Of a stretch of 64,000 bases of DNA, positions 11,613 through 26,595 are shown one piece after another (within the stretch, counting starts at the first letter, position 1; each line of letters starts with the position of its first letter). The position numbers and the translations under genes are program-made. The stretch is from Ignavibacteriota bacterium (lineage in GTDB: Bacteria; Bacteroidota; Ignavibacteria; Ignavibacteriales; Melioribacteraceae): positions 62,001 to 126,000 of the forward strand of contig PAAX01000011.1 of assembly GCA_002698995.1 (NCBI GenBank), in the 5' to 3' direction. Below the pieces are notes generated by a model, which saw only the letters and a program-made list of their open reading frames with translations, ran no database searches and was not told the DNA's origin.

Positions 11613-12458
11613 ATGAGAAAATTATTATTAATACTTACACTTGCAACTAGTTCCCTATTGGCGCAGAGTTTCAATTTTATAAAAGAGTTCGGAAATTTTA
11701 AGGAGAGTTCAGCTCTCTCCGTTACACAAGGATATAATATTTATGTCTCTGATACGGATAAAAATGAAATTTACAAATTCGATAATTCCGGCAGACAGAT
11801 AAGCTCCATAGGAGGTTATGGCTGGGATATTGAGGCTTTCGACGAACCAATCGATATTTTTGCAACTCCTCTTAATATTTATGTGACAGATAAAAATAAT
11901 AATAGAATTCAGATATTTGACCGCGAATTGAATTTCCTTTCTCTATTTAAAACTCATGAAAATGAAGCTCAAGAATTTTCATTTAGCTACCCTACTTGTG
12001 CTGCAATCTCAACAAACGGCGATTTACTGATTCTGGATTCTGATAATTCAAGAATTTTAAAGTATGATTTAAACGGCAATTATCTACAGCAAATTGGTAA
12101 TTATGATGCCGGAAGTTATAAACTAAATGATCCCGTAAAGTTTTCTATTTCAAGGGATGGAAGAATTTTTGTTCTTGATGGAAATGAAATATTTGTCTTT
12201 GATCAATTTGGAACCGGCATAAGTAAAATTAGAATAAGCGAGGATGTAAACAATATTTCTATTTATGATTTTAATCTGACTTTAACTTCAGATAAGAAAA
12301 TATTTACCATTGATTTAAGAAATGTAGCAAATGGTTTTGTGGAATTTAATCCAGCCGAAATAACAGATAATGAAATAATCACCGATTCTGCTTTTATTAA
12401 TGATAAGTTATTTATTCTTACTTCAAAAAGAATCTTAGAATACTCAGTAAAGAAATGA
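11613..12458 (+). CDS. Secreted NHL-repeat / 6-bladed beta-propeller protein
   Basis: A 281-residue protein with a signal peptide (residues 1-17, RKLLLILTLATSSLLAQ). Repeated NHL-like blades follow: YNIYVSDTDKNEIYKFDNSG (about 45-64), LNIYVTDKNNNRIQIFDREL (about 87-106), GDLLILDSDNSRILKYDLNG (about 132-151) and GRIFVLDGNEIFVFDQFG (about 175-192). This is the architecture of six-bladed propellers used as protein- or ligand-binding scaffolds in the periplasm. The stop overlaps the next start by 4 nt, so it begins a four-gene operon with three membrane proteins. Confidence 0.75.
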   Translation: MRKLLLILTLATSSLLAQSFNFIKEFGNFKESSALSVTQGYNIYVSDTDKNEIYKFDNSGRQISSIGGYGWDIEAFDEPIDIFATPLNIYVTDKNNNRIQIFDRELNFLSLFKTHENEAQEFSFSYPTCAAISTNGDLLILDSDNSRILKYDLNGNYLQQIGNYDAGSYKLNDPVKFSISRDGRIFVLDGNEIFVFDQFGTGISKIRISEDVNNISIYDFNLTLTSDKKIFTIDLRNVANGFVEFNPAEITDNEIITDSAFINDKLFILTSKRILEYSVKK

Positions 12459-12913
12459 AATCCTATTTTAAGATAAAAATTATCTTAGCCTTTCTTTTTT
12501 CCGTATGGATTTTATTCATATTCTCTGAACCATTTTTTTTTAGCAGCAAAATTGGATTTATAACTTATCCTTTTGTTAAAAAAGGATTGAATCTAATCTG
12601 TCATCAGGAGGAAGCTAAGCTAATCAGCTTTTTCGGTTACAATTCATTTTTATGCACAAGATGTGTTGGTTTATATTTAGGTGTATTGGCCGGATTATTA
12701 TTTTCATTTTTTATTCACCTAAGTATCAAAACAAATAAAAAATTATTTGCTGCTGCAACTACGTTAATCATTTTAGACATAGTTATTTATGACTATATAC
12801 AACTCTATAGTTACAATAAAATTATAGCTTTTGTAACCGGATTATTTTTAGGTTCCACACTTTTTAATTATTTTTGGGACAGTTTAACAAAATTGAAAGA
12901 ATCAGATAAGTGA
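12455..12913 (+). CDS. DUF2085 family membrane protein
   Basis: A 152-residue protein with about four membrane helices. The central NLICHQEEAKLISFFGYN ... FLCTRCVGLYLGVLAG (about residues 47-82) is the DUF2085 signature, with its CHQ and CxRCxG motif. The function of the family is unknown; the conserved Cys/His suggest a bound metal or redox site at the membrane. It overlaps both neighbours by 4 nt (ATGA and GTGA), so translation is probably coupled. Confidence 0.82.
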   Translation: MKSYFKIKIILAFLFSVWILFIFSEPFFFSSKIGFITYPFVKKGLNLICHQEEAKLISFFGYNSFLCTRCVGLYLGVLAGLLFSFFIHLSIKTNKKLFAAATTLIILDIVIYDYIQLYSYNKIIAFVTGLFLGSTLFNYFWDSLTKLKESDK

Positions 12914-13416
12914 AAAAATATTTTCCACCTTTAGTTGCCGGTTTTGCTGCCGGTGTATTTTTAATTGTTCCGGTAATAAAAAATCTTTCTTGCTGTGTGA
13001 TAATTCCATTTGCATCATATCTTGCACTCTTTTTAGAGATGAAATCTCAAAGGGTAATTTTTGAAATTAAAGTTTCAAGAGGTGCTTTAATTGGATTATT
13101 AACCGGATTAACAGCAGCATTTTTTGCTACTTCATTCGATGTATTAATTACATTTATTACTAAATCAAACGATATAATTTTAGCTTTTAACAATCTCCCT
13201 TTAGTGATGGAAAATTTCCCTTTTGATGATTCTATTAAACAGCAAATAGTTGATATTTTTGAAACGATAGTTAATGACATAAAAACTTTCGGTTTCTCCC
13301 CCGTATATGCTGCATCAATGCTGGTAAACAATTTATTTTTTGGATTTGTTTTCGGTACAATTGGAGGAATGATAAGTGTTCCCATTTTAAATTCCAGATT
13401 AAGAAAAGAGAAATAG
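12910..13416 (+). CDS. Hypothetical polytopic membrane protein
   Basis: A 168-residue protein of unknown family starting at GTG 12910, which overlaps the DUF2085 stop. About four hydrophobic segments (near residues 5-22, 26-44, 57-78 and 140-160) flank an extramembrane loop (about 85-128). An early NLSCCVIIP cysteine pair is notable next to the Cys-rich DUF2085 partner. Glycine-rich GALIGLLTGLTAAF and GFVFGTIGGMISVP resemble paired helices of small transport-associated proteins. The function cannot be assigned. Confidence 0.6.
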   Translation: MKKYFPPLVAGFAAGVFLIVPVIKNLSCCVIIPFASYLALFLEMKSQRVIFEIKVSRGALIGLLTGLTAAFFATSFDVLITFITKSNDIILAFNNLPLVMENFPFDDSIKQQIVDIFETIVNDIKTFGFSPVYAASMLVNNLFFGFVFGTIGGMISVPILNSRLRKEK

Positions 13417-13417
13417 T

Positions 13418-13792
13418 ATGATTATATTTTTCATCTTTCTGTTTCATATAATATTTGGAATATACATTTTTGTTAAAGTTCTGAAAACCGAATCATTCTC
13501 TTCAGCTCTTTTCAATTTATTTTTAATTATAATTTTGTTCTCTGTTGGATGGGCTTTTCTAAACTTCTTTACAAAATTATTTTTTGATCAGTTAGTGTAT
13601 TCAACACACATAAATAGTGAATCCCCTCTTTGGTTTGTTTTACAATTTGCTGCAATGTGGATGAAAAAACCGGATGGATTTATGTTTAATTTTACTCTGG
13701 ATAAGCTAAATTTAATTTTACTGACTATAATAGAGTTCTTTTTCTATAAAAATTATTATAAAGATATTATTGGAGGCGGTAAGGGAAAATAA
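13418..13792 (+). CDS. Hypothetical membrane protein
   Basis: A 124-residue protein with two clear N-terminal membrane helices (about residues 1-19 and 28-52) and a third weaker hydrophobic stretch near 93-107 (LDKLNLILLTIIEFFF). It follows the previous gene by 1 nt and closes the propeller-DUF2085 run. Its 3' end overlaps the convergent TonB gene by 26 nt. No family is recognised. Confidence 0.55.
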   Translation: MIIFFIFLFHIIFGIYIFVKVLKTESFSSALFNLFLIIILFSVGWAFLNFFTKLFFDQLVYSTHINSESPLWFVLQFAAMWMKKPDGFMFNFTLDKLNLILLTIIEFFFYKNYYKDIIGGGKGK

Positions 13793-14453
13793 TTATCGCA
13801 TTTTGTTCTGATCTTTTTTTGCCGCTTGGAATCGGCTCAAATCGCCATTGTTTTAATGAATTTATTGCAGCAAGTTCAAGTTTTGTATCAGCTTTAAATA
13901 AAGGAAAGATTTTGCTAACAGTTCCATCAGGCATAATCGTAAATCTTAGTTTCACATCAATTTCTTTTGATACTCCTTCAGGATATTCAGGTAAAATATA
14001 ACTATAAATTTTTCTTACGCCGCTTCCGCCAAAATCTATTTGAAATCCGGTTGAACCGGCTCCATCACCAGATTCTTCTTTTCCTTTTGCTTCTGATAGT
14101 TCTTCTTTAATAACCGGTTTAGGTGCCGGTTTTACTTCTTCCTTTTTAGATTCATCTTTATCAATTTTTGTTATTGTATTATCATCAGAACTATTTTCTG
14201 TCTTTGGAAGCTCAACTTTCTCTTCTTTAACTTTAGTTTCTTGTTTAGGTTTAATTTCAGGTAACCTATTTTCTACGGGAGCTTTTTGACCAACAGCCCC
14301 TTGCGAACTTGTTGAAGCTAAACTTCCGAATCCAATAGTAACAAAATCATCCTCTTCATAATTATCGGCTATTTTAATAAAGAATAATAATAGCCCGATT
14401 ACTAAATGAATCGCAAAAGAATATAAATATGATGAATTCTTAAATCTACGCAT
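13767..14453 (-). CDS. TonB-family energy transducer
   Basis: A 228-residue protein with the TonB plan. There is a basic start and one membrane helix (about residues 10-26), a long Lys/Glu/Pro-rich periplasmic spacer (about 55-125), and a C-terminal TonB domain (about 145-228) with YPEGVSKEIDVKLRFTIMPDG and the family end motif AAINSLKQWRFEPIPSGKK. It transmits proton-motive force from ExbB/ExbD to an outer-membrane receptor. It is the last gene of the 21822-to-13767 envelope operon, 5 nt after exbD. The co-operonic barrel at 17264 is the obvious partner. Confidence 0.88.
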   Translation of the reverse strand: MRRFKNSSYLYSFAIHLVIGLLLFFIKIADNYEEDDFVTIGFGSLASTSSQGAVGQKAPVENRLPEIKPKQETKVKEEKVELPKTENSSDDNTITKIDKDESKKEEVKPAPKPVIKEELSEAKGKEESGDGAGSTGFQIDFGGSGVRKIYSYILPEYPEGVSKEIDVKLRFTIMPDGTVSKIFPLFKADTKLELAAINSLKQWRFEPIPSGKKRSEQNAIIIFPYRLQ

Positions 14454-14458
14454 GTTAA

Positions 14459-14863
14459 TTAAAAAGATTCTTTCTCGGTTTGAATAGTAAACTTATCTAT
14501 CCCAACCCCTTTTGCGGCATCAATTACCTTGATAACCAAATCAATATTTACTTCTTTATCTGCTCTAATTATTAAATTCTTATCACTATTATTTTGAGAA
14601 GCAGATTCTAATTTCATAGGAAGTCCGTCAATTCCAACTAAATCACTACCTAAGTATATTTTACTATCCGGTGTAATAGTAACAATTAACTGGGATGGGA
14701 GAGTTTGTTCATTTGTTTTAGAACCGGGTAGTTTAACCTTTACTCCGGTCTGTATTACGAACTGAGAAGTTAAAAGAAAAAATATCAGCAGCAGAAGTAC
14801 AATATCGGTTAATGAAGAAAAATTAAAAACATTCAGAGGTTTATTTTCCATTTCAAATTTCAT
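14459..14863 (-). CDS. exbD: ExbD/TolR biopolymer transport protein
   Basis: A 134-residue protein with one N-terminal membrane helix carrying the essential aspartate (SLTDIVLLLLIFFLLTSQF, Asp about residue 19). The periplasmic domain contains VKLPGS and the DKNLIIRADKEVNIDLVIKV segment typical of ExbD/TolR. It forms the proton-conducting core of the TonB motor with ExbB. Two nt separate it from exbB and five from tonB, supporting co-expression at fixed stoichiometry. Confidence 0.92.
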   Translation of the reverse strand: MKFEMENKPLNVFNFSSLTDIVLLLLIFFLLTSQFVIQTGVKVKLPGSKTNEQTLPSQLIVTITPDSKIYLGSDLVGIDGLPMKLESASQNNSDKNLIIRADKEVNIDLVIKVIDAAKGVGIDKFTIQTEKESF

Positions 14864-14865
14864 AA

Positions 14866-15495
14866 CTAACCTTTTTTACTTCTGTTGTATTCTTCCAAAG
14901 TATCAACAACATCATTAGAAATAACTTCCATTTCAACAACAAGTTTTTTAATACCGGCAACAAGGTAATTATAAAATGCATAGGCAATTATACCAACAGC
15001 TAAACCGAAAGCAGTTGTTATGAGTGCTTCCCAAATACCACCGGCTAAATCACTTGGATTTGCAGCACCTTGTAAATCTTCAATTCTCATAAATGCAGAA
15101 ATCATTCCCGTTACTGTTCCTAAAAATCCAAGTAAAGGTGCAATACCTGAAATTGTTGCTAAAACAGAAAGACCTTTTTCTAACCTTGTTATTTCTTGTT
15201 TTCCGGCAGTTTCTATTGCTTCTTTTACTCTATCATGACCTAAATGATATTTTCTTAAGCCTTTTCGTACAATATATGCGGCTGGAGTTTTTTCATCTTT
15301 ACAAAATTCAATTGCCGAATCTATTTTCCCTTCTCTTAACATTCCTCTTACTTTTACTAAAAATGCCGGAACATTTAATCTGGATTTTCTGATTACTATA
15401 TATCTATCAATAATTATTGCAATCGCAATTAATGAAGATATCAAAATAGGAAGCATTAACCAGCCACCTTTTACTAAAACCATAATTATTCGCAT
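14866..15495 (-). CDS. exbB: ExbB/TolQ/MotA proton channel protein
   Basis: A protein of about 209 residues. The opening MVLVKGGWLMLPILISSLIA and the two late helices in ATISGIAPLLGFLGTVTGMI and GGIWEALITTAFGLAVGIIA are diagnostic of MotA/TolQ/ExbB channels. It couples proton flow to TonB. The frame extends to a TTG at 15507, but ATG 15495 (or ATG 15483) is a better start; AGGA lies just ahead of 15495 at short spacing. It follows the HU-SPOR gene almost directly. Confidence 0.9.
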   Translation of the reverse strand: MRIIMVLVKGGWLMLPILISSLIAIAIIIDRYIVIRKSRLNVPAFLVKVRGMLREGKIDSAIEFCKDEKTPAAYIVRKGLRKYHLGHDRVKEAIETAGKQEITRLEKGLSVLATISGIAPLLGFLGTVTGMISAFMRIEDLQGAANPSDLAGGIWEALITTAFGLAVGIIAYAFYNYLVAGIKKLVVEMEVISNDVVDTLEEYNRSKKG

Positions 15496-15507
15496 AATTC
15501 CTACCAA

Positions 15508-17259
15508 TTATTTCTGTTTATTCTGAAATTCTTTCGCTTTTTCTATTGATGAAAAATATCCAACTCTAACTCTATACCAAGTTCCAAGCTTTTTTAAATT
15601 TGCGGCTACAACCGCCGTTTTATATCCTAATGATTTTAATCTTTCTGCTTCCCTATCAGCAATGTCTTTACTTTTCCAGCTTGATACTTGAACTGAATAT
15701 TCTTTACCATTTGTAAAAATAAAATTGCTTACTTCAATTTCGTCTTCCGGCTTCAACACAGATTTGCTGTTATTTGTTTCCGGATTTGATGCAACCACTT
15801 CCTCTTTTTGCACTGCTTCCATTTTAGGTATTGGTGTCTCCTCAACTTTATCAATTTGTTGAGTTGTGTCCTTATTAACCGGTTTTACAATACTCGCATT
15901 ACTTTGCTTAATGGAATCTGCTGCAGCAATAATATTATCTTTTGAGACCACACTAGAATCACTTTCATTAAAAAATAAGAAATATACTCCGCCCAAAGTT
16001 ACAATTACAAAAAGAGTTGCTAAACCCCAAAATAAACGCCCAAATTTTTTCTTTGCAGATTCTTCCGGAATTTCTTCGTTTGGTATATCATTTTCCGGGG
16101 AATATTCTATTGTACTGGCAAGTATTTTATCGTCAAGCTCTTTTTCATTATCTTTTTCATTCTGATTACTATCTTCGAATTCATCAGTTGCTTCATTTTC
16201 TTCTATATTATCAAAATTATCAAGTTGATCAACATCTCCCTTTTCAATCTCTTCTTCAGGTTCATCAATTTCGCCGCTGAAAGTTTTTTCTAAAGTGGCA
16301 AATGGATCATCTTCATCAACTGGATCAATTTTATCTTTATTTTTATTTTCATCAATATCAAATTCATTATCTGTAGATTGCGCAAGAATGCTGGTCAATT
16401 CAGCAAAAGCATCTAAATCTTTCTCTGATGAGAATTTATTATCATCAACAATATCATCATTAGAATCAATTTCAACATTATTCAATATTTTATCAATCTC
16501 ATCCTGAGAGAAACTTTCAGTTATATTTTTTTCGTTACTTAGTCCTTGATTAAAAGCATTTTCAAAATCCTTTATTTCATTATCATCTAATTCATCACTA
16601 TCCAAATCTTCTAGAACAGATTCTTGATTAGGCTTATTATCAACTTCTATATTTTCGGAAATCTGCTCATCATCATAAGTCTCTATTGATTCTTTTTGAA
16701 ATTCAAAAGAATCATCATTCTCGGAATCTAAAATTATTTCTTCATTCGGTTGTTTTTCAATATTGCTGTAGAAATCATCCCAAATATCAAAGTCATCAAT
16801 TTTCTCACTCTCTTCAATTAATTCTGTCACTCTGGATTCAAGAGATTTTTTAATCATATGAATTGATGAATCAGACTCTTCAGCATCATTTATAGGTAAA
16901 ATCGGTTTCCCTACACCAGGACTAAATATTTCATCGTCAAATTCAAATTCATCTTTAGTTTTTGCTTTTACATCAAAAGAAAGAAAAAGAGAATTACTTT
17001 CACGAGAGGATTTATTATCAAACGCTGAATAGATTATTTTATCTTTTTTCCCATCCGACAACCCAATCAGACTCTTCTCATCTTCCGTCAATTCACTTTT
17101 CTTAAGTTGAAAAGCGCCAATTCCTTTAATTTTAATAGCCTGATTGTAATTTAGTGTATCTGAAATTTTTTCAAGAAATATTTCAAAAGCTAAATCTTTT
17201 TCTACTGAAGAAACTCCGAGAATTTTAGCAATATTTTCTTTTAATGATTCTTTTTTCAT
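15508..17259 (-). CDS. HU-like domain / transmembrane / SPOR domain fusion protein
   Basis: A 583-residue protein with unusual architecture. Residues about 1-80 resemble an HU/IHF fold (KENIAKILGVSSVEKDLAFEI, then IKIKGIGAFQLKK). Residues about 85-400 are extremely acidic and low-complexity (Asp, Glu, Asn, Ser). One membrane helix follows at about 407-428 (LFWGLATLFVIVTLGGVYFL), and a C-terminal SPOR domain ends the protein (about 505-583, YSVQVSSWKSKDIADREAERL, WYRVRVGYF). The SPOR domain would bind denuded peptidoglycan in the periplasm, while the HU-like domain stays in the cytoplasm. HU-SPOR membrane proteins are known in Bacteroidota but their role is not established. It sits between the barrel gene and exbB. 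Confidence 0.82.
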   Translation of the reverse strand: MKKESLKENIAKILGVSSVEKDLAFEIFLEKISDTLNYNQAIKIKGIGAFQLKKSELTEDEKSLIGLSDGKKDKIIYSAFDNKSSRESNSLFLSFDVKAKTKDEFEFDDEIFSPGVGKPILPINDAEESDSSIHMIKKSLESRVTELIEESEKIDDFDIWDDFYSNIEKQPNEEIILDSENDDSFEFQKESIETYDDEQISENIEVDNKPNQESVLEDLDSDELDDNEIKDFENAFNQGLSNEKNITESFSQDEIDKILNNVEIDSNDDIVDDNKFSSEKDLDAFAELTSILAQSTDNEFDIDENKNKDKIDPVDEDDPFATLEKTFSGEIDEPEEEIEKGDVDQLDNFDNIEENEATDEFEDSNQNEKDNEKELDDKILASTIEYSPENDIPNEEIPEESAKKKFGRLFWGLATLFVIVTLGGVYFLFFNESDSSVVSKDNIIAAADSIKQSNASIVKPVNKDTTQQIDKVEETPIPKMEAVQKEEVVASNPETNNSKSVLKPEDEIEVSNFIFTNGKEYSVQVSSWKSKDIADREAERLKSLGYKTAVVAANLKKLGTWYRVRVGYFSSIEKAKEFQNKQK

Positions 17260-17263
17260 TTAT

Positions 17264-18856
17264 CTAAAATTGATATTCAATTCCTAGTAATACATCAAAT
17301 GTTTTTTCTTGATATAATTTCCAATAATAATTTTTATTATTGATTATGTTGTTTAATTCTGCAAAAGTATAGAAGTTAGTAAATAATTCGTACTTAACAA
17401 ATAAATCTAAGCTGTTAAGATATGGTAATTTTACAGAATTTTGAATATCGGAATAGGCTTCGGATGAAAATTTATAACGTAAAGTTGCATTTAACCCGAA
17501 ATTAAAATTATAATTATAAGCCGCTGTAAAAACAAAACCAGGTTCGTAAGGAATAACATTATTAAAGGAAGCTCTTGCATCCTGAATTCTTAAATCAGCA
17601 AAGAAGTTTCCAAATCGATTAGTCAACAAATTTGAATTAAGAAAAAGAGTTACAATCTTAACATCATCTTCTTTATAAGTATCAAAAAATCCGGTTAATG
17701 TTCTGTCTTCAAAATAGAAATAATTATCTACAGTGCGAGCTTCAAATCCGGCACTAACATCAAATTGAGTTAAATACTCGTACTTAATCGCAAGTTTGAA
17801 TTTTGAATTATCTTTTACAAAATAATTTTCAGCATTACCAAATTTCATATATCTGTTTATATTAATTAAATCTCTTATAGAATTAAATTGATACTGCGGA
17901 TGATATTCAGCAAAAAGTGAAATTCCTTTTTCAAGCTTGATATTAGCACCAACAAATGGAGTAATGAAAGAATTTGAATCCTGCTTTGCCATACTTAAAC
18001 CAAGTTCTAAAGTAAGAATTTTTGATGGTGAAAGCTTTATAGCCGAATTAATTCCATAGTATTTATTATCTGCATTAACACTCAAATTATTTTGTAAGCT
18101 TTGCTGTTGGAACTCAGCATTGACTCTAAATCCAAAGTAGTTAAATTTACTTTGCCAGAATCCCTTCACACCATAATTGAGTTCGTCAAAACCATTTTCA
18201 TTTATATTAAGATAAGAACCGTCAAAAGTTAATCCATAACTGACTTCACGATTATAATAGTTTATAAATGCTAAGCTGCCAAAACCGTTTGTTGTTTCCC
18301 TTTCCAAATTTGGATTTGTGCTTCCGTAAAATTTATACTTATCTCTAAAAATATTGCCATCTAATGAAATATTTAATCCGGGGAAGGCATTTGATTGATT
18401 GCTTATATAAATATCCGTATTTAGTTCAGCACCGGAAATATTGTACCCGGCATTATCAATATAAGATTTTGTGTTTTTGCCGAATACTTTTGCATTCATT
18501 ACAAAGTGTTGAAAACTTTGAGTAAAATTAAATTCGCCGTACGGCAGGACATGAATTCCGGCTCCCAGTTTGAGTATTCCGCTATTATAATCTTTACTGC
18601 TTAGAATATCAACGTTTCTGGTAATCGGGTTTGAATCCTTTGACATCTCTAATTCTTCGGGAGAAAATACCGGGTTGAAAAATTCATTTGATAAAACCGG
18701 AATCAAATCAATTTTTCTCTTTGCCATTGTAGGAATATCAACACTTTGTATACCGGTAATTACAAAATCGGGAAGCTCAATATCCTGACCCTTGTTTTGA
18801 TCTTGTGCAATTATTACCGAACCAATTATTATAAATAAAAATAATTTTCTTATCAT
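17264..18856 (-). CDS. Outer-membrane beta-barrel protein with TonB-box-like start
   Basis: A 530-residue protein with a signal peptide (residues 1-17, ending VIIAQ). Shortly after it comes ELPDFVITGIQS (about 25-36), which resembles the TonB box/plug entry of TonB-dependent receptors. From about residue 80 on, alternating aromatic strands (YGLTFDGSYL, FGFRVNAEFQQQ, FKLAIKYEYLTQF, ending LLGIEYQF with a terminal Phe) indicate an outer-membrane barrel. No full plug domain is apparent, so it is not a standard receptor. Its start overlaps the TPR gene by 4 nt. Confidence 0.72.
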   Translation of the reverse strand: MIRKLFLFIIIGSVIIAQDQNKGQDIELPDFVITGIQSVDIPTMAKRKIDLIPVLSNEFFNPVFSPEELEMSKDSNPITRNVDILSSKDYNSGILKLGAGIHVLPYGEFNFTQSFQHFVMNAKVFGKNTKSYIDNAGYNISGAELNTDIYISNQSNAFPGLNISLDGNIFRDKYKFYGSTNPNLERETTNGFGSLAFINYYNREVSYGLTFDGSYLNINENGFDELNYGVKGFWQSKFNYFGFRVNAEFQQQSLQNNLSVNADNKYYGINSAIKLSPSKILTLELGLSMAKQDSNSFITPFVGANIKLEKGISLFAEYHPQYQFNSIRDLININRYMKFGNAENYFVKDNSKFKLAIKYEYLTQFDVSAGFEARTVDNYFYFEDRTLTGFFDTYKEDDVKIVTLFLNSNLLTNRFGNFFADLRIQDARASFNNVIPYEPGFVFTAAYNYNFNFGLNATLRYKFSSEAYSDIQNSVKLPYLNSLDLFVKYELFTNFYTFAELNNIINNKNYYWKLYQEKTFDVLLGIEYQF

Positions 18857-21822
18857 AAACTATTTAATTTCCTTCTTGCTTCTCTTTCAATATCATTATT
18901 TCTGTTTGATTTTAAGACTGCTCTGTACATATCTCTAGCATTCTTTATATCATTTATTTTCACATAACAATCTCCAAGTTTAAGCAAAGACTTCGAGTAC
19001 CATTCCAAATAATTTGAATAAATTGATCTGACTCTTACAAATGCAGATATTGCATCATTTATTTTTTCTTGACTAAAAAGTGAAAGACCATAATAATACT
19101 GGGCTTTGGCACCTAAATCATCTTTTCTTCTCTCACTAACATCTCTGAATAAGTCTTCAGAATTACTGAAACTTTTTCGTTCTAATTCAAGAATACCAAG
19201 CTCAATTTTAGCTTTGTCGGAGAAAAGAGTTCCATCGTAATAATTAATCAAGTAATTGAAAGTCTTATAAGCTTCAGGAAGATTTTTAATTTTAACCAGC
19301 AATTCCCCTTTGGCAAAAAGAAGTTCCGGTAATCTTGGAGAGTCGGTCAAATTATTTATTGCTTGATCATAAAGATCAATTGCTTTATCGGTCTCTTTAC
19401 CTTCTTCATAAATTTGAGCAAGTTCAATTATGGAAGTGATTCCAACTTCCGAAGCAATATGTTTATCAATTACAAAATTGTAATTATATATAGCATCATT
19501 CCTTTGATTCAAATAGCTGGAACTTTTGGCAATCCAATAATATGCATTTGGAACCAAAGGACTATTTGGATAAGTTGCAATAAATTCTTTATAACTTACT
19601 TTGGCCATTTCATAATTTTCGATTCCGTAAAAGATTTCTCCCTTCTTAAATAAAATTTGATCTCCAAATTTTGAAGTAGGATTGCTTGCAACATATTGAT
19701 CTATAACATTTACAGCCATATCCGGTTTATCTTTGGCTACATAAGAGTATTGAATCCCGTTAACTGCATCAAAAACAAATTGAGATTTCGGATAATCATT
19801 AATAATTCGGCGGTAATAAACAATTGAAGAATCATAACTACCCATATTAAAAAAAGCATCACCAATTGAATAATATGCAATAGGACGAAGAGGAGAATTT
19901 CTATAAAAATTAATGATTTGTCTGTAATTATTAATTGCTAAATCAAACCTTGCTTGTTGAAAATAAATCCATCCAATTAAATATTGTGCATCATCAACAT
20001 ATTTTGAATTAGGAAATTTATTTTGAAGATTTCTTAATTCCAAAATAGCTTCGGAATCATTTCCGGCTTTGAAGAGTGATTGAGCAAATTGATAATATGC
20101 AAAATCATCTTTTATGCTCTGTCTGTTATTATAGAAAATCTCTTTATAAATTTTAGAAGCATCATTAAAATTTTTTGTACCGTAATAACTGTCAGCTAAT
20201 CTTAACTTTGCATCAAAAAACAACGGATCATTTTTATATTTTGTAATATATTCTTGGAAATAGTAGACAGCATTTGGAAAATCTTTCATATTAAAATATG
20301 AGTATGCCAATCCGTACAATGCTTCTTTCCCGACTTCTTCAGAAAACAAATTAACATATTTATAGTGCTGGAGTGATTTATTGAATTCTCCTTTTGCAAA
20401 GTATGATTCTGCCAAATAAAGATTTGCTTTATCTTTTTCAAATCCATTACCTCTTGCCAGTAAATCGGATAAATTTGTAATTGCCTCTTCAAAATTGTTT
20501 AAATAATACTGTGAAACTCCAAGTCCTAATAAAGATCTAAAACTATCTTCGCCCGGTTCCGGACTAGCCTTTACAGCACTTGCAAAATATTCTTCAGCTG
20601 AACTGTAATCCTTTTTCAGCAGACTAATTTCACCAAGAAGCTTAAAAGATTTTGATTGAACTGTTTCATCTTCTGAATCCAGTGATCGAATAAGAAATTT
20701 TTCTGCATTTGAATAATCTTTATTGTTGAAATAAATTATGCTCACCTTAAAAAGTACTAAAGGTGTTAACGAAGATTTCGGATAAGATTTTAAATATTTA
20801 TCATAAATTTTCAATGCTTCATTTTCTTGATTAAGATAACGTTTAGCTTCGGCACTCCAATACAAAGATTTTTGAGCAATAGTATCACTTAGAGCATTTT
20901 CAGAAAGAACCTTGAAAATATTATAAGCTTCAACATAATCTTGCTGTTGAAAACTTATAAGTCCTAGTCCAAATCTTACATTATCTGCTTTTGATCTATC
21001 ATTATATTTTGATAGAATTTCATTGAAGACATTTGCAGCACTATTGTATTCTTTTAATTTGAAAAAAGAATTAGCAAGATAATATCTTGCCTCAGTCTGC
21101 ACATCAATCGGAAGTTTATCAATTAAAGGATCGCTTAATTCAAGAACCGCACTATCATATTCTTTTAATTCGTAATAACAAATTCCGATTCTAAATTGAG
21201 CATAAGGAGCTAGTTCACTCTCTCTATAAAAAGATAAGAGTTCATCATAATAAGCAACAGCTGAATTATAATCCAAAGTCTTCTCATAAATACCGGCTAA
21301 AGAATATAGGCTATAATCTATGTGTCTGTTTTTTGTTCTTGCAGAAATTGCTTCTTGAAGAAAGTTCTCAGCATCTAAAAATTTATCTTGCGCAGCGTAT
21401 GTCTCCCCAACCCAATAATAAGCGGTTCCGGTATACTGTCCTTCTGGATAATCTTTTATAAGAATTAAAAGTTTTTCTCTGCTTTTATCAAAAAGATTTT
21501 CTTCAAAATAAATAGTTCCTAATTTATAAAGAGCAGTTTCTCTATAATTTGAAAGTTCATACTGTTCCACAAATTTTTCGAATTCAGCCGCTGCACCATC
21601 TACTTGTTTAAGACCAAGCAGAGATTCTCCCAAATAATATTTTGCCGTTGATGTAACTTGATCATCAACTTTACTTTTTGAAATTAGTTCTGAAAATATA
21701 TTGTAGGAATTTACATATTCAGAATTATTGTAAGCTTCCATTCCTTTTTCAAAAAGTTCGGAAACTGATTGAGCAGTTATTGAATTAATTAAAAATAATA
21801 GACTAAAAAAAAGTTTCTTCAT
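18853..21822 (-). CDS. Large periplasmic TPR-repeat protein
   Basis: A 989-residue exported protein (signal residues 1-18, MKKLFFSLLFLINSITAQ). It is built almost entirely of about 25 tetratricopeptide-type units with recurring A.YYLGES/A.YWVGE and YP.S....A.Y patterns, as in YbgF/CpoB, BamD-like and Bacteroidota gliding-associated TPR proteins. It is first in the six-gene operon with the barrel, HU-SPOR protein, ExbB, ExbD and TonB, and probably scaffolds an envelope complex. The gene starts 1 nt after the DUF92 stop, so transcription may come from further upstream. Confidence 0.85.
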   Translation of the reverse strand: MKKLFFSLLFLINSITAQSVSELFEKGMEAYNNSEYVNSYNIFSELISKSKVDDQVTSTAKYYLGESLLGLKQVDGAAAEFEKFVEQYELSNYRETALYKLGTIYFEENLFDKSREKLLILIKDYPEGQYTGTAYYWVGETYAAQDKFLDAENFLQEAISARTKNRHIDYSLYSLAGIYEKTLDYNSAVAYYDELLSFYRESELAPYAQFRIGICYYELKEYDSAVLELSDPLIDKLPIDVQTEARYYLANSFFKLKEYNSAANVFNEILSKYNDRSKADNVRFGLGLISFQQQDYVEAYNIFKVLSENALSDTIAQKSLYWSAEAKRYLNQENEALKIYDKYLKSYPKSSLTPLVLFKVSIIYFNNKDYSNAEKFLIRSLDSEDETVQSKSFKLLGEISLLKKDYSSAEEYFASAVKASPEPGEDSFRSLLGLGVSQYYLNNFEEAITNLSDLLARGNGFEKDKANLYLAESYFAKGEFNKSLQHYKYVNLFSEEVGKEALYGLAYSYFNMKDFPNAVYYFQEYITKYKNDPLFFDAKLRLADSYYGTKNFNDASKIYKEIFYNNRQSIKDDFAYYQFAQSLFKAGNDSEAILELRNLQNKFPNSKYVDDAQYLIGWIYFQQARFDLAINNYRQIINFYRNSPLRPIAYYSIGDAFFNMGSYDSSIVYYRRIINDYPKSQFVFDAVNGIQYSYVAKDKPDMAVNVIDQYVASNPTSKFGDQILFKKGEIFYGIENYEMAKVSYKEFIATYPNSPLVPNAYYWIAKSSSYLNQRNDAIYNYNFVIDKHIASEVGITSIIELAQIYEEGKETDKAIDLYDQAINNLTDSPRLPELLFAKGELLVKIKNLPEAYKTFNYLINYYDGTLFSDKAKIELGILELERKSFSNSEDLFRDVSERRKDDLGAKAQYYYGLSLFSQEKINDAISAFVRVRSIYSNYLEWYSKSLLKLGDCYVKINDIKNARDMYRAVLKSNRNNDIEREARRKLNSL

Positions 21823-21823
21823 A

Positions 21824-23287
21824 TTACCACACTAAAACTAAGATTAAAATACCTCCGGATAATCCGGCTAATAAATTTACTATATCGTTATTTAACCAAT
21901 GCAGACCATTGTAATGAGATGTTTGTTCACCGCAATGATGTTTTTTTTCTGTTATTTTATTGCACACATCACATTTATTTTTAGCTTGAATAGTAGCCCC
22001 CAAAATACTGTCAAATAAACTTCCAGCTACTCCGGTAAAAACAATTAATAATACATAATTTATAAAAGAAAACTCTATCCAAAAAATACCGGAAAGAGAA
22101 ATAACAAATGCCCCAAGAACCGCACCGGAAGTACCTAACAAAGAAATTCCACCGCTTATTCCTTGTTCAACCGGTTTAAGATTAAGAATGTTATACGTAG
22201 TAGTTTGTTTAAGTGTTCCAATTTCTGTTGCCCAAGTATCGGCGCATACCGCAGCCAATGAAGATAGATAAATTAAATAAATCAAGTCACTATTTATAAA
22301 CTGATTTACAATAACTAAAATTCCTCCAATTCCTCCATTAGCAACTACTTGCATATAATCTCTTGTGCTGGACTTTTCAAAGTACAATTCAACTTCTTCA
22401 TTTACCTTTTTTCTTACTTTTGAAAGGACACTTGATAAAATAAAAAAAGTTAGAATTGGAAGACTCCACATCCATCCACCCAAACCAAAAATTAATCCGG
22501 CCAATAAAAATGTAGCTGCCGAGCCATCCACAGTTAAAAATTTTACTTTATATGAAATAACGGCAACAACGGCTGAAAGTCCCATTCCAATAACAAATTG
22601 ATTCTGTATCTGCTGATTATCAACAAAAATTAATAGAAGCAAAGAAGAGATAATTGGAACAATAAAATTATCAAATCCTTTCGATGAAATTGCTTCAAAA
22701 ATTGTTACTACAATTGCAATCGAAGTTAACGCAGTAAATGAAATTTTGTCATTGATGAGTAAATTAAATTCTCTAGGAATTACAACGAGGATTATCAATG
22801 TAATCGAAAAAAAAGTAAGAGATCCAATTAATGATTTTTTATCGCCGGTTAAATTAAAATACTGCTTACTTATAAATGTTCCGATTATAGCCGCGAAAGA
22901 ATCAGAGAAAGCTAAGATTAAGAAAGAGAGTGCAATAATTTCTTTATTCTCTTTACCTAAAAGCAACAAAAGCAAAAAATAGGATAACGGGAAAAAGAAT
23001 ATTCCCCAGCTTAATGATCGATCTTGATGAATTGATGGTATTAATTTCTTAAAAACTGCAAAAAAAGTTAAAATAGTTGCTGCACCGGCAGCTGCAATTA
23101 ATACCGAATAATTCTCAAAAATAATTGAAGCATAAGCCGCCAATAAAACTGCAGAAAGATGAAGCATTTTTCTTGCAATTTCCTTATGAACTATTTCCCT
23201 TTTTGCTAATCCTTCAGTAATAACAATTAATGAAATAATAATTGCTGCAAAAAGAGTCAAATAAAAGTAATCGGAATGTTCTATCAA
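21824..23287 (-). CDS. Fused prenol-kinase-like (VTE5/dolichol kinase) and DUF92 (VTE6-like) membrane protein
   Basis: A polytopic protein with two halves. The N-terminal half has the CTP-dependent polyprenol/phytol kinase signature: HKEIARKMLHLS, then SDSFAAIIG and GDKKSLIGSLTFF. The C-terminal ~270 residues are a DUF92 domain (DGSAATFLLAGLIFGLGG ... ADTWATEIG ... CDVCNKITEKKHHCG ... HWLNNDIVNLL). In plants these are separate phytol kinase (VTE5) and phytyl-phosphate kinase (VTE6). The open frame reaches ATG 23410, but that start lies inside the divergent gene at 23391; TTG 23287 (487 residues) is my tentative start. It probably phosphorylates a prenyl alcohol twice at the inner membrane. 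Confidence 0.78.
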   Translation of the reverse strand: MIEHSDYFYLTLFAAIIISLIVITEGLAKREIVHKEIARKMLHLSAVLLAAYASIIFENYSVLIAAAGAATILTFFAVFKKLIPSIHQDRSLSWGIFFFPLSYFLLLLLLGKENKEIIALSFLILAFSDSFAAIIGTFISKQYFNLTGDKKSLIGSLTFFSITLIILVVIPREFNLLINDKISFTALTSIAIVVTIFEAISSKGFDNFIVPIISSLLLLIFVDNQQIQNQFVIGMGLSAVVAVISYKVKFLTVDGSAATFLLAGLIFGLGGWMWSLPILTFFILSSVLSKVRKKVNEEVELYFEKSSTRDYMQVVANGGIGGILVIVNQFINSDLIYLIYLSSLAAVCADTWATEIGTLKQTTTYNILNLKPVEQGISGGISLLGTSGAVLGAFVISLSGIFWIEFSFINYVLLIVFTGVAGSLFDSILGATIQAKNKCDVCNKITEKKHHCGEQTSHYNGLHWLNNDIVNLLAGLSGGILILVLVW

Positions 23288-23390
23288 ATTATTTGTATAT
23301 TTTTGGAAAAATTTTAAGTCTGAATATAATATATTAGCAGTTGAACTTAAAGGAAGTTTCGATTTCCACAAAATAAATAAGGAGTATGTT

Positions 23391-24041
23391 ATGCAAAAAA
23401 TTAAATTCATAATTTTCGGAATTTTGCTATTAACAACATTTTCTTTTGCACAAGGATTAAAAATTGGGCCGCTTGTAGGTTACAATAACTTTACTTCCCC
23501 TGATGCTTTCACAAAAGAAATTAGTGACGGAGGATTTGGTTTTTCAAATAATCTACAGTTTGGTGCAAAAGCAAAAGTAGATCTTATTTTACTAAAAGCT
23601 ACTGCGTTTGTAGCTTATAATTCAATGAGCAGCGATGGAGAAATACAAACATTAACAGGAACTGCAAAATCAGAGACTGAAGGAAGTTTGTTAACAATTG
23701 GACTTGGAGCTGAATTTGGCTTGTTACCTATTCCTGGTCCGGTAAAACCTTATTTGGGAGCTGATTTATTGATTAACAGTTTCGGTGATTTCAAATCGAA
23801 GACTACTCAAAATAATTTTACCAGCGAAAATACTTTTTCATATGGTTCTAGATATGGACTGGGAATTGGCGCCGGTGTTGAAATTACTGCATTTCCAAAA
23901 GTTGATTTAGACTTCAATGTAAAATACAATTTTAATAATCTGATCGGAAAAGAAGATTTGCAGGCAGGTGTTATTAAAATTTCGGAAGAAAGTGTTAATT
24001 CGATTACAATTCAATTCACAGTATTGTTTAAAATTATCTAA
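23391..24041 (+). CDS. Outer-membrane beta-barrel protein (OmpA-like/porin family)
   Basis: A 216-residue protein preceded by AATAAGGAGTATGTT. Signal peptide residues 1-20 end TTFSFAQG. The mature part starts LKIGPLVGYNNF and runs as amphipathic strands separated by short turns (GAKAKVDLILLKATAFVAY, GLGIGAGVEITAF, VDLDFNVKYNF), ending in hydrophobic ITIQFTVLFKII. This fits an eight-stranded barrel of the outer-membrane-protein beta-barrel family. Ligand unknown. It stands alone between divergent and convergent genes and has its own terminator. Confidence 0.78.
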   Translation: MQKIKFIIFGILLLTTFSFAQGLKIGPLVGYNNFTSPDAFTKEISDGGFGFSNNLQFGAKAKVDLILLKATAFVAYNSMSSDGEIQTLTGTAKSETEGSLLTIGLGAEFGLLPIPGPVKPYLGADLLINSFGDFKSKTTQNNFTSENTFSYGSRYGLGIGAGVEITAFPKVDLDFNVKYNFNNLIGKEDLQAGVIKISEESVNSITIQFTVLFKII

Positions 24042-25112: not shown

Positions 25113-25583
25113 TTAATCAACCATTTGACTTTTTCTGTTAAAGAATTTCTTTCGAACTTCATCTCTAAAGCGATTTTCAAATAGCAAATATTTTAACATT
25201 TGTTCCTTAGTTAAAATGTTCTCTACACTTTTCAGAAAGTTTTCTCTTTCGGTATGATGCATTTTTTCCAGTTCTTGAATGCGGGTTATATATTTTACTG
25301 CGGTTTGATCATCTATTTTATTTTCTTGTCTAATTCTATCCCCCACTTTATCCATAAGTTTATGAAGTTCATCATTTATTTCACGCATTTTGGATTTACT
25401 TTCATTCCTTCTTGCAAAAAACTTTAATGTTGTTTCTTCATCAAGATTAAGAACTTCTATTAACTTAACTTTTTCCAATTGTTCGTACTTATCTATTTCA
25501 TTTTTCCATCTATGTCTTTCTTGCTGAGCATTAATGCTTACTATAAAAGCAACAAAGAATATAACAAATAATAATTTTTTCAT
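25113..25583 (-). CDS. Exported Spy/CpxP-like or sensor-associated helical protein
   Basis: A 156-residue protein with a signal peptide (residues 1-19, ending FIVSINAQ) and an otherwise all-helical, highly charged body. The pattern of an arginine-rich helix, a long coiled helix and a late LTKEQMLKYLLFENRF (about 125-140) resembles the LTxxQ-motif Spy/CpxP periplasmic chaperone family. It is downstream of the sigma/anti-sigma pair (12-nt gap), so it is probably a target or modulator of that system. Confidence 0.65.
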   Translation of the reverse strand: MKKLLFVIFFVAFIVSINAQQERHRWKNEIDKYEQLEKVKLIEVLNLDEETTLKFFARRNESKSKMREINDELHKLMDKVGDRIRQENKIDDQTAVKYITRIQELEKMHHTERENFLKSVENILTKEQMLKYLLFENRFRDEVRKKFFNRKSQMVD

Positions 25584-25595
25584 TTTTTCCTCACT

Positions 25596-26021
25596 TTAGA
25601 AATCAGAGTTTACTGCAATATTTTCAAGTAAATAAGATGAATTATTCTCAAACAGCGAATCCATTTCCAACAATATTTCAATCATTTCTTCATCAGATAA
25701 TTTTTCATAATAATCGGAAAGATCAAAAGTATAGTCATTTTTCATAACCGATAAATATTCAATTGGTACTTCGTTGTTAAAATTATTAAAATCTTCAAAA
25801 AGTTCATCGGTTGTTTTTTGATTTATATTAACTATGGACAATACAAAAATTATTAAAACTGCAGCAATACCACTGAAAATAAAACTTGATATTGGTAAAA
25901 GAAAAATTCCTTTTAATAAGGGATTCTTTCTTTCCATTGCTCTGTTAATAACATCCGACTTATAATAATCAGAAATTTTAATCTTTTTATAACTATCAAA
26001 ATTTTTAATTTTCTTTTCCAT
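25596..26021 (-). CDS. Probable membrane anti-sigma factor
   Basis: A 141-residue protein with one membrane helix in the middle (about residues 45-66, LPISSFIFSGIAAVLIIFVL). It has a short basic cytoplasmic part and an acidic C-terminal part rich in Asp and Glu. There is no zinc-finger HxxxCxxC motif. Its start lies 17 nt inside the end of the sigma-factor gene, the standard arrangement for an ECF sigma factor and its cognate anti-sigma. The assignment rests on this position and topology rather than on a family motif. Confidence 0.65.
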   Translation of the reverse strand: MEKKIKNFDSYKKIKISDYYKSDVINRAMERKNPLLKGIFLLPISSFIFSGIAAVLIIFVLSIVNINQKTTDELFEDFNNFNNEVPIEYLSVMKNDYTFDLSDYYEKLSDEEMIEILLEMDSLFENNSSYLLENIAVNSDF

Positions 26022-26595
26022 TTCTTGCCTCTACTTCATCCATTCCTAAAATCTCTTTTAGTTTATTAAATGCATGAAAATAATTTGCCTTAATTGATCC
26101 AATTGATTTTCCGGTGATATTAGATATTTCTTGATAACTTAACTCTTCAAAATGCCTAAGTGAAAAAACTTCTCTCTGTTTTGGAGGAATTTTTAAAAGT
26201 GCTTTATCAATTAATCCAAGCATTTCTTTGTTTTCTAAATTCTCCATTGTTGAATATTCACTTGGGATTTCGTTACCATTTTCATCATCAATTCCAAAAA
26301 ACCTTTTTATAGAATTTTTCTTTAATAGATTCAAAGAACGAGTATAAGTTATTTTATAAATCCATGTATATAAAGAAGAATCACTGTTAAACGTATGAAG
26401 TTTTTCATACATAACAACAAGTACTTGCTGCACAATTTCATCAGCATCAAAGTGATTACCTAAAATTCTTCTTGAATGCCAGTAAATTTTATCTATATAT
26501 CTTTTTGCCAGTTGATTAAAGGAATTATCATCCCCTTGCAAAAATTTCTTTATTAATTCTTTATCATCCAATAAAAATATCCGTTTGATATTCAT
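26005..26595 (-). CDS. ECF RNA polymerase sigma factor
   Basis: A 196-residue protein with region 2 at about 24-90 (FNQLAKRYIDKIYWHSRRIL, DADEIVQQVLVVMYEKL, SSLYTWIYKITYTRSLN) and region 4 at about 135-185 (LLKIPPKQREVFSLRHFEELSYQEISNITGKSIGSIKANYFHAF). There is no region 3 or extra domain, as in SigW/RpoE-like ECF factors. It overlaps the anti-sigma gene and is divergent from the Spy-like gene at 26701, a plausible target. The shared 105-base gap must hold both promoters. Confidence 0.92.
   Translation of the reverse strand: MNIKRIFLLDDKELIKKFLQGDDNSFNQLAKRYIDKIYWHSRRILGNHFDADEIVQQVLVVMYEKLHTFNSDSSLYTWIYKITYTRSLNLLKKNSIKRFFGIDDENGNEIPSEYSTMENLENKEMLGLIDKALLKIPPKQREVFSLRHFEELSYQEISNITGKSIGSIKANYFHAFNKLKEILGMDEVEARNGKEN

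Follow-up and report, generated by a model that had tools for sequence, protein, structure and literature searches.

A conserved TonB-type operon of the Ignavibacteriales as a candidate for the missing Tol-Pal function

In Proteobacteria, the constriction of the outer membrane is carried out by Tol-Pal. For the related Ton system, the roles in Escherichia coli of the SxxxH motif of TonB, of an aspartate of ExbD and of threonine and glutamate residues of ExbB are well established. In its section on missing tol-pal, a 2025 paper (PMC12204202) describes tol-pal loci as not identifiable in Bacteroidetes and treats as an open question by what means the outer membrane is brought along with the septum there; PorE is proposed as a tether between outer membrane and wall, and further systems are expected. 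Here, we describe an operon that presents a concrete, conserved and testable candidate for this missing function. The operon is found at 13767-21822 on the minus strand of a 64,000-nucleotide stretch of DNA from an Ignavibacteriota bacterium (contig PAAX01000011.1, positions 62,001 to 126,000; hereafter, the window), and encodes a tetratricopeptide repeat (TPR) protein, an outer-membrane barrel, a protein with HU-like and SPOR domains, and ExbB, ExbD and TonB-type proteins. It is not mentioned in the section cited above, nor was any description of it found in the open literature searched, the coverage of which was incomplete. We consider that the operon has about an even chance of encoding a system driven by the proton-motive force and targeted to the septum, acting on the outer membrane as Tol-Pal does without being Tol-Pal.

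Gene content and conservation of the operon

The genome holding the window comprises 4.2 Mb in 36 contigs and is 99.99% complete. The six open reading frames (ORFs) share one strand, with neighbours overlapping or standing apart by only a few bases. From 5' to 3' on the minus strand, these are:

18853-21822, minus strand: TPR protein gene (989 aa)
17264-18856, minus strand: barrel gene (530 aa)
15508-17259, minus strand: HU-SPOR gene (583 aa), with a transmembrane (TM) helix between the HU and SPOR parts
14866-15507, minus strand: gene for an ExbB/TolQ-type proton channel subunit, with a TTG start; an ATG at 15495 is the likelier start (the feature then being 14866-15495)
14459-14863, minus strand: gene for an ExbD/TolR-type subunit, with the TM aspartate D20
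13767-14453, minus strand: gene for a TonB-type force transducer, with S12xxxH16 in the TM helix and a TonB_C domain

Pfam matches in the operon are to MotA_ExbB (PF01618) at 3e-35, ExbD at 5e-29, TonB_C at 3e-5 and SPOR (PF05036) at 1.5e-12. Taken with the ORFs, the structural model and the predicted topology, they confirm the preliminary description of this DNA in its account of the operon, as all six genes are real and each had been described accurately.

Our analysis of conservation considered 80 loci of relatives that were picked by a match to the barrel, such that the barrel counts hold by construction. These were 40 loci from the order (Ignavibacteriales; stretches of 14-19 kb), 20 from the same class and 20 from other classes. 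Those relatives matched by the barrel profile that bear names are Ignavibacteriales, mostly metagenome-assembled genomes of Melioribacteraceae and Ignavibacteriaceae, together with the isolate Stygiobacter electus, from which the window would belong to the Melioribacteraceae. The barrel gene was found once per genome in 56 of 58 order-level relatives. Within the order, the TPR gene adjoins the barrel gene in all 40 loci, HU-SPOR and TonB are each present in 39 and ExbB-ExbD in 32, with order and orientation kept; in the one locus counted as lacking HU-SPOR (L068), SPOR is present without a detected HU. The class loci retain TPR in 19, SPOR in 17, TonB in 16, ExbB/ExbD in 7 and HU in 1 of the 20, and the loci of other classes retain TPR in 17, ExbB/ExbD in 7 and TonB in 4. 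TPR and barrel are thus the most constant pair of the module, adjoining each other in 36 of the 40 loci outside the order. In 11 of the 20 other-class loci, moreover, a gene of HU and/or SPOR type directly follows the barrel (two of the 11 being seeds of the profile used). Across the phylum, the barrel profile matched 226 of 296 sampled genomes, often weakly.

Synteny within the order should not be taken as sufficient specific evidence, since four convergent downstream genes (window 11613-13792, plus strand; an NHL propeller, DUF2085, a DUF4199-like membrane protein and a small membrane protein) are equally conserved there, being kept in 34-38 of the 40 loci. Beyond the order, these genes persist in 0, 0, 0 and 6 of the 20 class loci and in none of the 20 other-class loci. 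It is therefore only persistence at the class and phylum levels that sets the module apart from its flanks. Recurring in 40 order-level loci and partly throughout the phylum, the six-gene arrangement is far beyond chance. The preliminary description had offered poor conservation of gene order as grounds for abandoning its proposal; instead, the order proved strongly conserved in the Ignavibacteriales and partly so in the class and in other classes. In three other-class loci (L121, L127 and L128), a gene that by eye is folC-like directly follows TonB at the end of the module.

The barrel, its scaffold and the motor

The AlphaFold2 model of the barrel protein (68 homologues in the alignment) has a mean pLDDT of 87.7, and the values exceed 90 almost throughout the barrel. 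About 22 strands are modelled at residues 90-530, preceded by residues 18-89, which are mostly disordered (pLDDT mostly below 60). The model matches BtuB at 3e-17 in Foldseek and the FhuA and BtuB barrels at a Z of ~24 in VIA, with the aligned part being limited to residues 88-530 and the part aligned in the targets beginning after the plug (e.g., BtuB 134-594). Similarly, a sequence search of the PDB matched the barrel to the C-terminal half of siderophore receptors. While the barrel family PF00593 was matched by 6 of the 68 members, no Pfam match to the plug family was obtained in any of them; the window barrel itself has no significant Pfam family, and what it matched at E 0.05-0.1, viral or harpin families, was dismissed as chance. 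As the plug is absent from the model, from the aligned range and from the family matches, the barrel is predicted to be of the TonB-dependent transporter (TBDT) type, derived from a transporter that lost its plug.

The disordered N-terminal tail of ~70 residues carries one further feature:

18752-18778, minus strand: TonB-box-like ELPDFVITG, residues 27-35 of the barrel protein, directly after the signal peptide

This is the most conserved nonapeptide of an otherwise fast-evolving protein, with a mean majority frequency of 0.95, as compared to 0.41 in the barrel and 0.32-0.56 in neighbouring stretches. Class members retain strings like ELP[DNE][FI][VI]ITG, and in other classes the same place is taken by the TonB-box-like EEVTVTKSY, TETVTVTKAY and EEIVVTTSY. 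ELPDFVITG is like TonB boxes such as DTITVTAA and DTLVVTA, and its core VITG is similar to the VVTA of the TonB boxes of E. coli. We thus regard the peptide as a putative TonB box. A plugless barrel with a TonB-box-like start, as had been claimed from the DNA letters, is thus strongly supported by the model, the structural alignment, the lack of a Pfam plug and the conservation of ELPDFVITG.

The TPR protein has a signal peptide, no lipobox Cys and 13 TPR_6 stretches in Pfam, and is predicted to be an exported periplasmic scaffold. Its homologues beside the barrel are of ~990 aa. The CpoB/YbgF model TIGR02795 reaches 313.7 bits against a cut-off of 90.1, a score that is summed over 11 repeat stretches. 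Assignment as PorW/SprE was rejected, as 137 bits against a cut-off of 250 reflects generic TPR similarity.

In the motor, the residues known from E. coli are retained, with S12 and H16 of the TonB TM helix being invariant in 40 of 40 sequences and D20 of ExbD and T131, E160, T164 and T165 of ExbB in 33 of 33. The best NCBIfam models for the motor are tolQ and tolR, both below their cut-offs: the window ExbB scores 101.8 bits with tolQ against 71.2 with exbB (likewise below cut-off), and tolR reaches 57.6 bits. By these scores, the motor appears slightly nearer to TolQ than to ExbB models. ExbB proteins encoded in this gene arrangement in other lineages share 35-51% identity with the window ExbB, as compared to 26-36% with the housekeeping ExbB, as would be expected if a single motor lineage had travelled with the module.

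The motor had been called dedicated, and this holds in part. A second, housekeeping-type ExbB-ExbD-ExbD set is found beside mutS2 in the same genome (L242, 3926-5615, minus strand), as are several stronger TonB_C matches elsewhere, such that the motor of the operon is not the general one. However, seven of the 40 order loci (L050, L051, L054, L057, L058, L065 and L070) lack a local ExbBD and have TonB directly after HU-SPOR. As TonB is kept without ExbBD in these loci, and in 16 class loci against 7 for ExbBD, the transducer is the fixed component, and the motor may act in trans. The downstream neighbours of the housekeeping set, read by eye, are GatB/YqeY-like, CvpA-like and MutS2-like.

The HU-SPOR protein and neighbouring genes

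The third gene of the operon encodes four distinguishable parts:

16960-17259, minus strand: HU-like domain, residues 1-100, predicted cytoplasmic; the DNA-binding arm is absent
16042-16959, minus strand: acidic linker of 285 aa with 34% D/E, probably disordered and cytoplasmic
15985-16041, minus strand: single TM helix, residues 407-425
15517-15708, minus strand: SPOR domain, residues 518-581, PF05036 at 1.5e-12, predicted periplasmic

The SPOR domain scores 48.1 bits against a gathering score of 21. As positive residues flank the TM helix on the HU side, the HU-like domain is predicted to be cytoplasmic and SPOR periplasmic, so that the layout first read from the sequence, with an HU-like domain, an acidic linker of ~300 residues, a TM helix and a periplasmic SPOR domain, was borne out by Pfam and predicted topology. 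Nearly all order members have one TM helix between an acidic cytoplasmic linker (170-520 residues; 17-42% D/E) and SPOR. In one locus (L045, 10366-12395), HU-linker and TM-SPOR are encoded on two overlapping ORFs, which points to a split gene or to an error of sequencing within the linker. According to PMC6895207, denuded glycan at the septum is bound by SPOR domains. No study of SPOR at the septum of Cytophaga hutchinsonii was found in the open literature searched.

The assignment of the HU-like domain derives from sequence profiles. Bac_DNA_binding (PF00216) matches the window protein at 4e-4 (2.7e-5 for the domain alone), covering only the helical half at residues 1-55, and is matched by 38 of the 40 order members. 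By structure alone the HU fold is weakly recovered, the best Foldseek E being 0.017, mostly to HU/IHF chains, and the VIA Z ~3. PF18175 (HU-CCDC81_bac) was matched by 13 of the 40 order members at E up to 0.1 and not by the window protein, whose HU domain is closer to PF00216 and HU-HIG than to HU-CCDC81. In the other-class loci L127, L128 and L133, HU-CCDC81 domains occupy the HU-SPOR slot, together with SPOR in L127, and in some class loci SPOR occurs as a TM-SPOR protein of ~200 residues with no HU. SPOR thus appears to be the more constant functional part of this gene. A role of the HU domain as a DNA binder was considered and is weakened by the arm tip NPxT, which was found in none of the 40 HU domains, whereas it is present in each of the two free HU proteins that the genome encodes; in the model, a short helix stands where the arm would be. 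In the simplest reading, HU was ancestral to the slot, lost DNA binding here and now serves docking or dimerisation. In one class-level relative (L111, 8728-9009, minus strand), barrel and HU-SPOR are separated by an additional, canonical HU gene, which scores 71 bits and covers the full arm region; this hints at HU heterodimers.

Two neighbours of the operon should also be mentioned:

21824-23410, minus strand: DUF92 membrane protein gene (PF01940, 4.5e-64), less conserved than the six genes
25113-26595, minus strand: a gene for an ECF-type (extracytoplasmic function) sigma factor (26005-26595) and one for a Metal_resist-like periplasmic protein (25113-25583)

As the DUF92 gene ends 1 nt ahead of the TPR start and is also found upstream in 23 of the 40 order-level relatives, the operon may have seven genes, with DUF92 probably leading the transcription unit. 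The DUF92 protein carries an extra multi-TM N-terminal half, and a role like that of a lipid or isoprenoid kinase is only a guess. The sigma factor and Metal_resist-like pair is likely a stress-response unit.

Possible function and comparison with known systems

An analogue of Tol-Pal had been suggested for the operon, and the search for a separate Tol-Pal locus found none. A profile search did not find TolB_N in the genome of the window, this domain occurring in 19 of the 296 phylum genomes, most of which belong to a single genus, and the TolB (TIGR02800) and Pal (TIGR02802) equivalogs passed their cut-offs in 0 of 12 genomes, that of the window included. No Pal lipoprotein is found in the operon, and the best Pal-like match in the genome (L243) has an OmpA domain and no lipobox Cys. 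Judged by these profiles, the operon is not Tol-Pal, just as its barrel, being predicted to have no plug, is not a standard TBDT. The suggested analogy fits, although the function itself is inferred.

In the septal reading that we favour, ExbB-ExbD would energise the TonB-type transducer, probably being supplied in some relatives from elsewhere in the genome. TonB would span the periplasm, bind ELPDFVITG on the flexible tail of the barrel and pull. As the box that would be pulled sits on a plugless barrel, the barrel would serve as a force-receiving anchor in the outer membrane and not as an importer with a gate. As the constant partner of the barrel, the exported TPR protein would bind it and act as a scaffold. 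Denuded glycan at the septum would be reached through the SPOR protein of the inner membrane, which would carry the assembly there, and the HU-like domain would serve for docking or dimerisation in the cytoplasm. Overall, the outer membrane would be drawn inward with the septum. The role in division is suggested by SPOR. FtsE-like ATPase genes lie divergent beside the TPR-barrel pair in two loci (L134, 4191-4874; L135, 3995-4678; TIGR02673 is the best model, just below cut-off), and we counted this neighbour for the septal, Tol-Pal-like reading.

Several points weigh against this reading and should be considered. SPOR indicates a wall-binding domain and not a division phenotype, and three further SPOR matches are found in the genome. 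A plugless barrel would leak unless closed, the candidates for closing the lumen being the TPR protein or the barrel tail. HU has no explained role. Matches to the barrel at the level of the Bacteroidia are mostly weak (E 1e-4 to 1e-20), and part of the phylum has the TPR-barrel pair without SPOR or motor nearby. Finally, PorE has already been proposed for the tether in this phylum. The wider claim, that Bacteroidota constrict the outer membrane through a TonB-powered, SPOR-targeted machine with a plugless importer-derived barrel as its anchor, and thus by a replacement of Tol-Pal evolved from transporter parts, is tentative and, in our view, rather doubtful. If true, a barrel without a plug but with a TonB box would mean that the Ton machinery has been put to a new use.

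The main rival is an energised outer-membrane channel, in which a polymer, lipid or protein would be exported or inserted by way of the TPR protein and the plugless barrel, with TonB opening or driving the passage, much as the TBDT Oar reportedly does in the secretion of PopC. TPR-barrel pairs are used in exopolysaccharide export, as in AlgK-AlgE, PgaA and BcsC, and the most constant pair of our module is so arranged, with the open lumen that the model and structural alignment of the barrel would offer. Nonetheless, none of the 40 order-level loci has a linked gene for a synthase, protease or cargo, a near-ubiquitous single copy (56 of 58 relatives) points to a housekeeping function more than to a niche polymer, the barrel is of the TBDT type and not a polysaccharide porin of 16-18 strands, and division better accounts for the SPOR partner and the TolQ-like motor. 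We thus hold such a channel to be less likely than the septal reading.

Less probable still is an anchor between nucleoid and envelope for chromosome partition, in which HU would grip DNA and SPOR the septal wall. Such anchoring has reportedly been proposed for CCDC81-type HU proteins of Bacteroidetes, and the HU-like domain of 38 of the 40 members, the HU-CCDC81 domains in the same slot of other classes and the separate HU gene in L111 agree with it. However, the DNA-binding arm is missing in 40 of 40 members and in the model, HU was found in just one of the 20 class loci, 17 of which keep SPOR, and anchoring by HU-SPOR leaves barrel, TPR protein and TonB unexplained. With the arm missing throughout the order and HU so rare in the class, the link to the nucleoid that had been suggested for the operon is its weakest part: an HU-like domain is present, but its contact with the nucleoid is weakly supported. 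That the barrel is a reduced nutrient importer of a Ton system, as TonB/ExbBD and the TBDT ancestry might suggest, is very improbable, given that none of the 68 members has a plug, that the copy is universal and single with SPOR and TPR partners, and that a separate housekeeping ExbB-ExbD-ExbD set and several other TonB_C proteins exist in the genome.

Compared with described systems, the operon shares with the AlgK-AlgE, PgaA and BcsC exporters a TPR scaffold paired with an outer-membrane barrel, although these have another barrel type and neither TonB nor SPOR, and the operon has no synthase. With the CCDC81-type HU-TM-SPOR proteins of Bacteroidetes, it shares the layout and, in other classes, the slot in the gene order, but the HU of the window is a single arm-less domain followed by the acidic linker of ~300 residues. 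PorE, as presented in the section cited of PMC12204202, is likewise a proposed answer to the missing Tol-Pal function, yet is one lipoprotein of CpoB, TolB, carboxypeptidase-like and Pal parts, with no motor or barrel in an operon. The Ton system and its TBDTs (BtuB, FhuA) have the same SxxxH TonB, ExbBD, TonB-box-like peptide and barrel fold (Z 24), but our barrel has no plug, is a universal single copy and is encoded with TPR and SPOR genes. Finally, Tol-Pal (TolQRA-TolB-Pal-CpoB) is alike in its proton-motive-force motor of the TolQR/ExbBD family, its periplasm-spanning transducer, its TPR protein in the operon (cf. CpoB/YbgF), its wall-binding partner and its single housekeeping copy. In contrast, the operon has neither TolB nor Pal, its outer-membrane partner is a plugless TBDT barrel with a TonB-box-like peptide, its wall binder is an inner-membrane SPOR protein and its transducer has TonB_C. 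The whole may thus work like Tol-Pal using Ton parts, as a variant of the Ton/Tol force-transducing systems.

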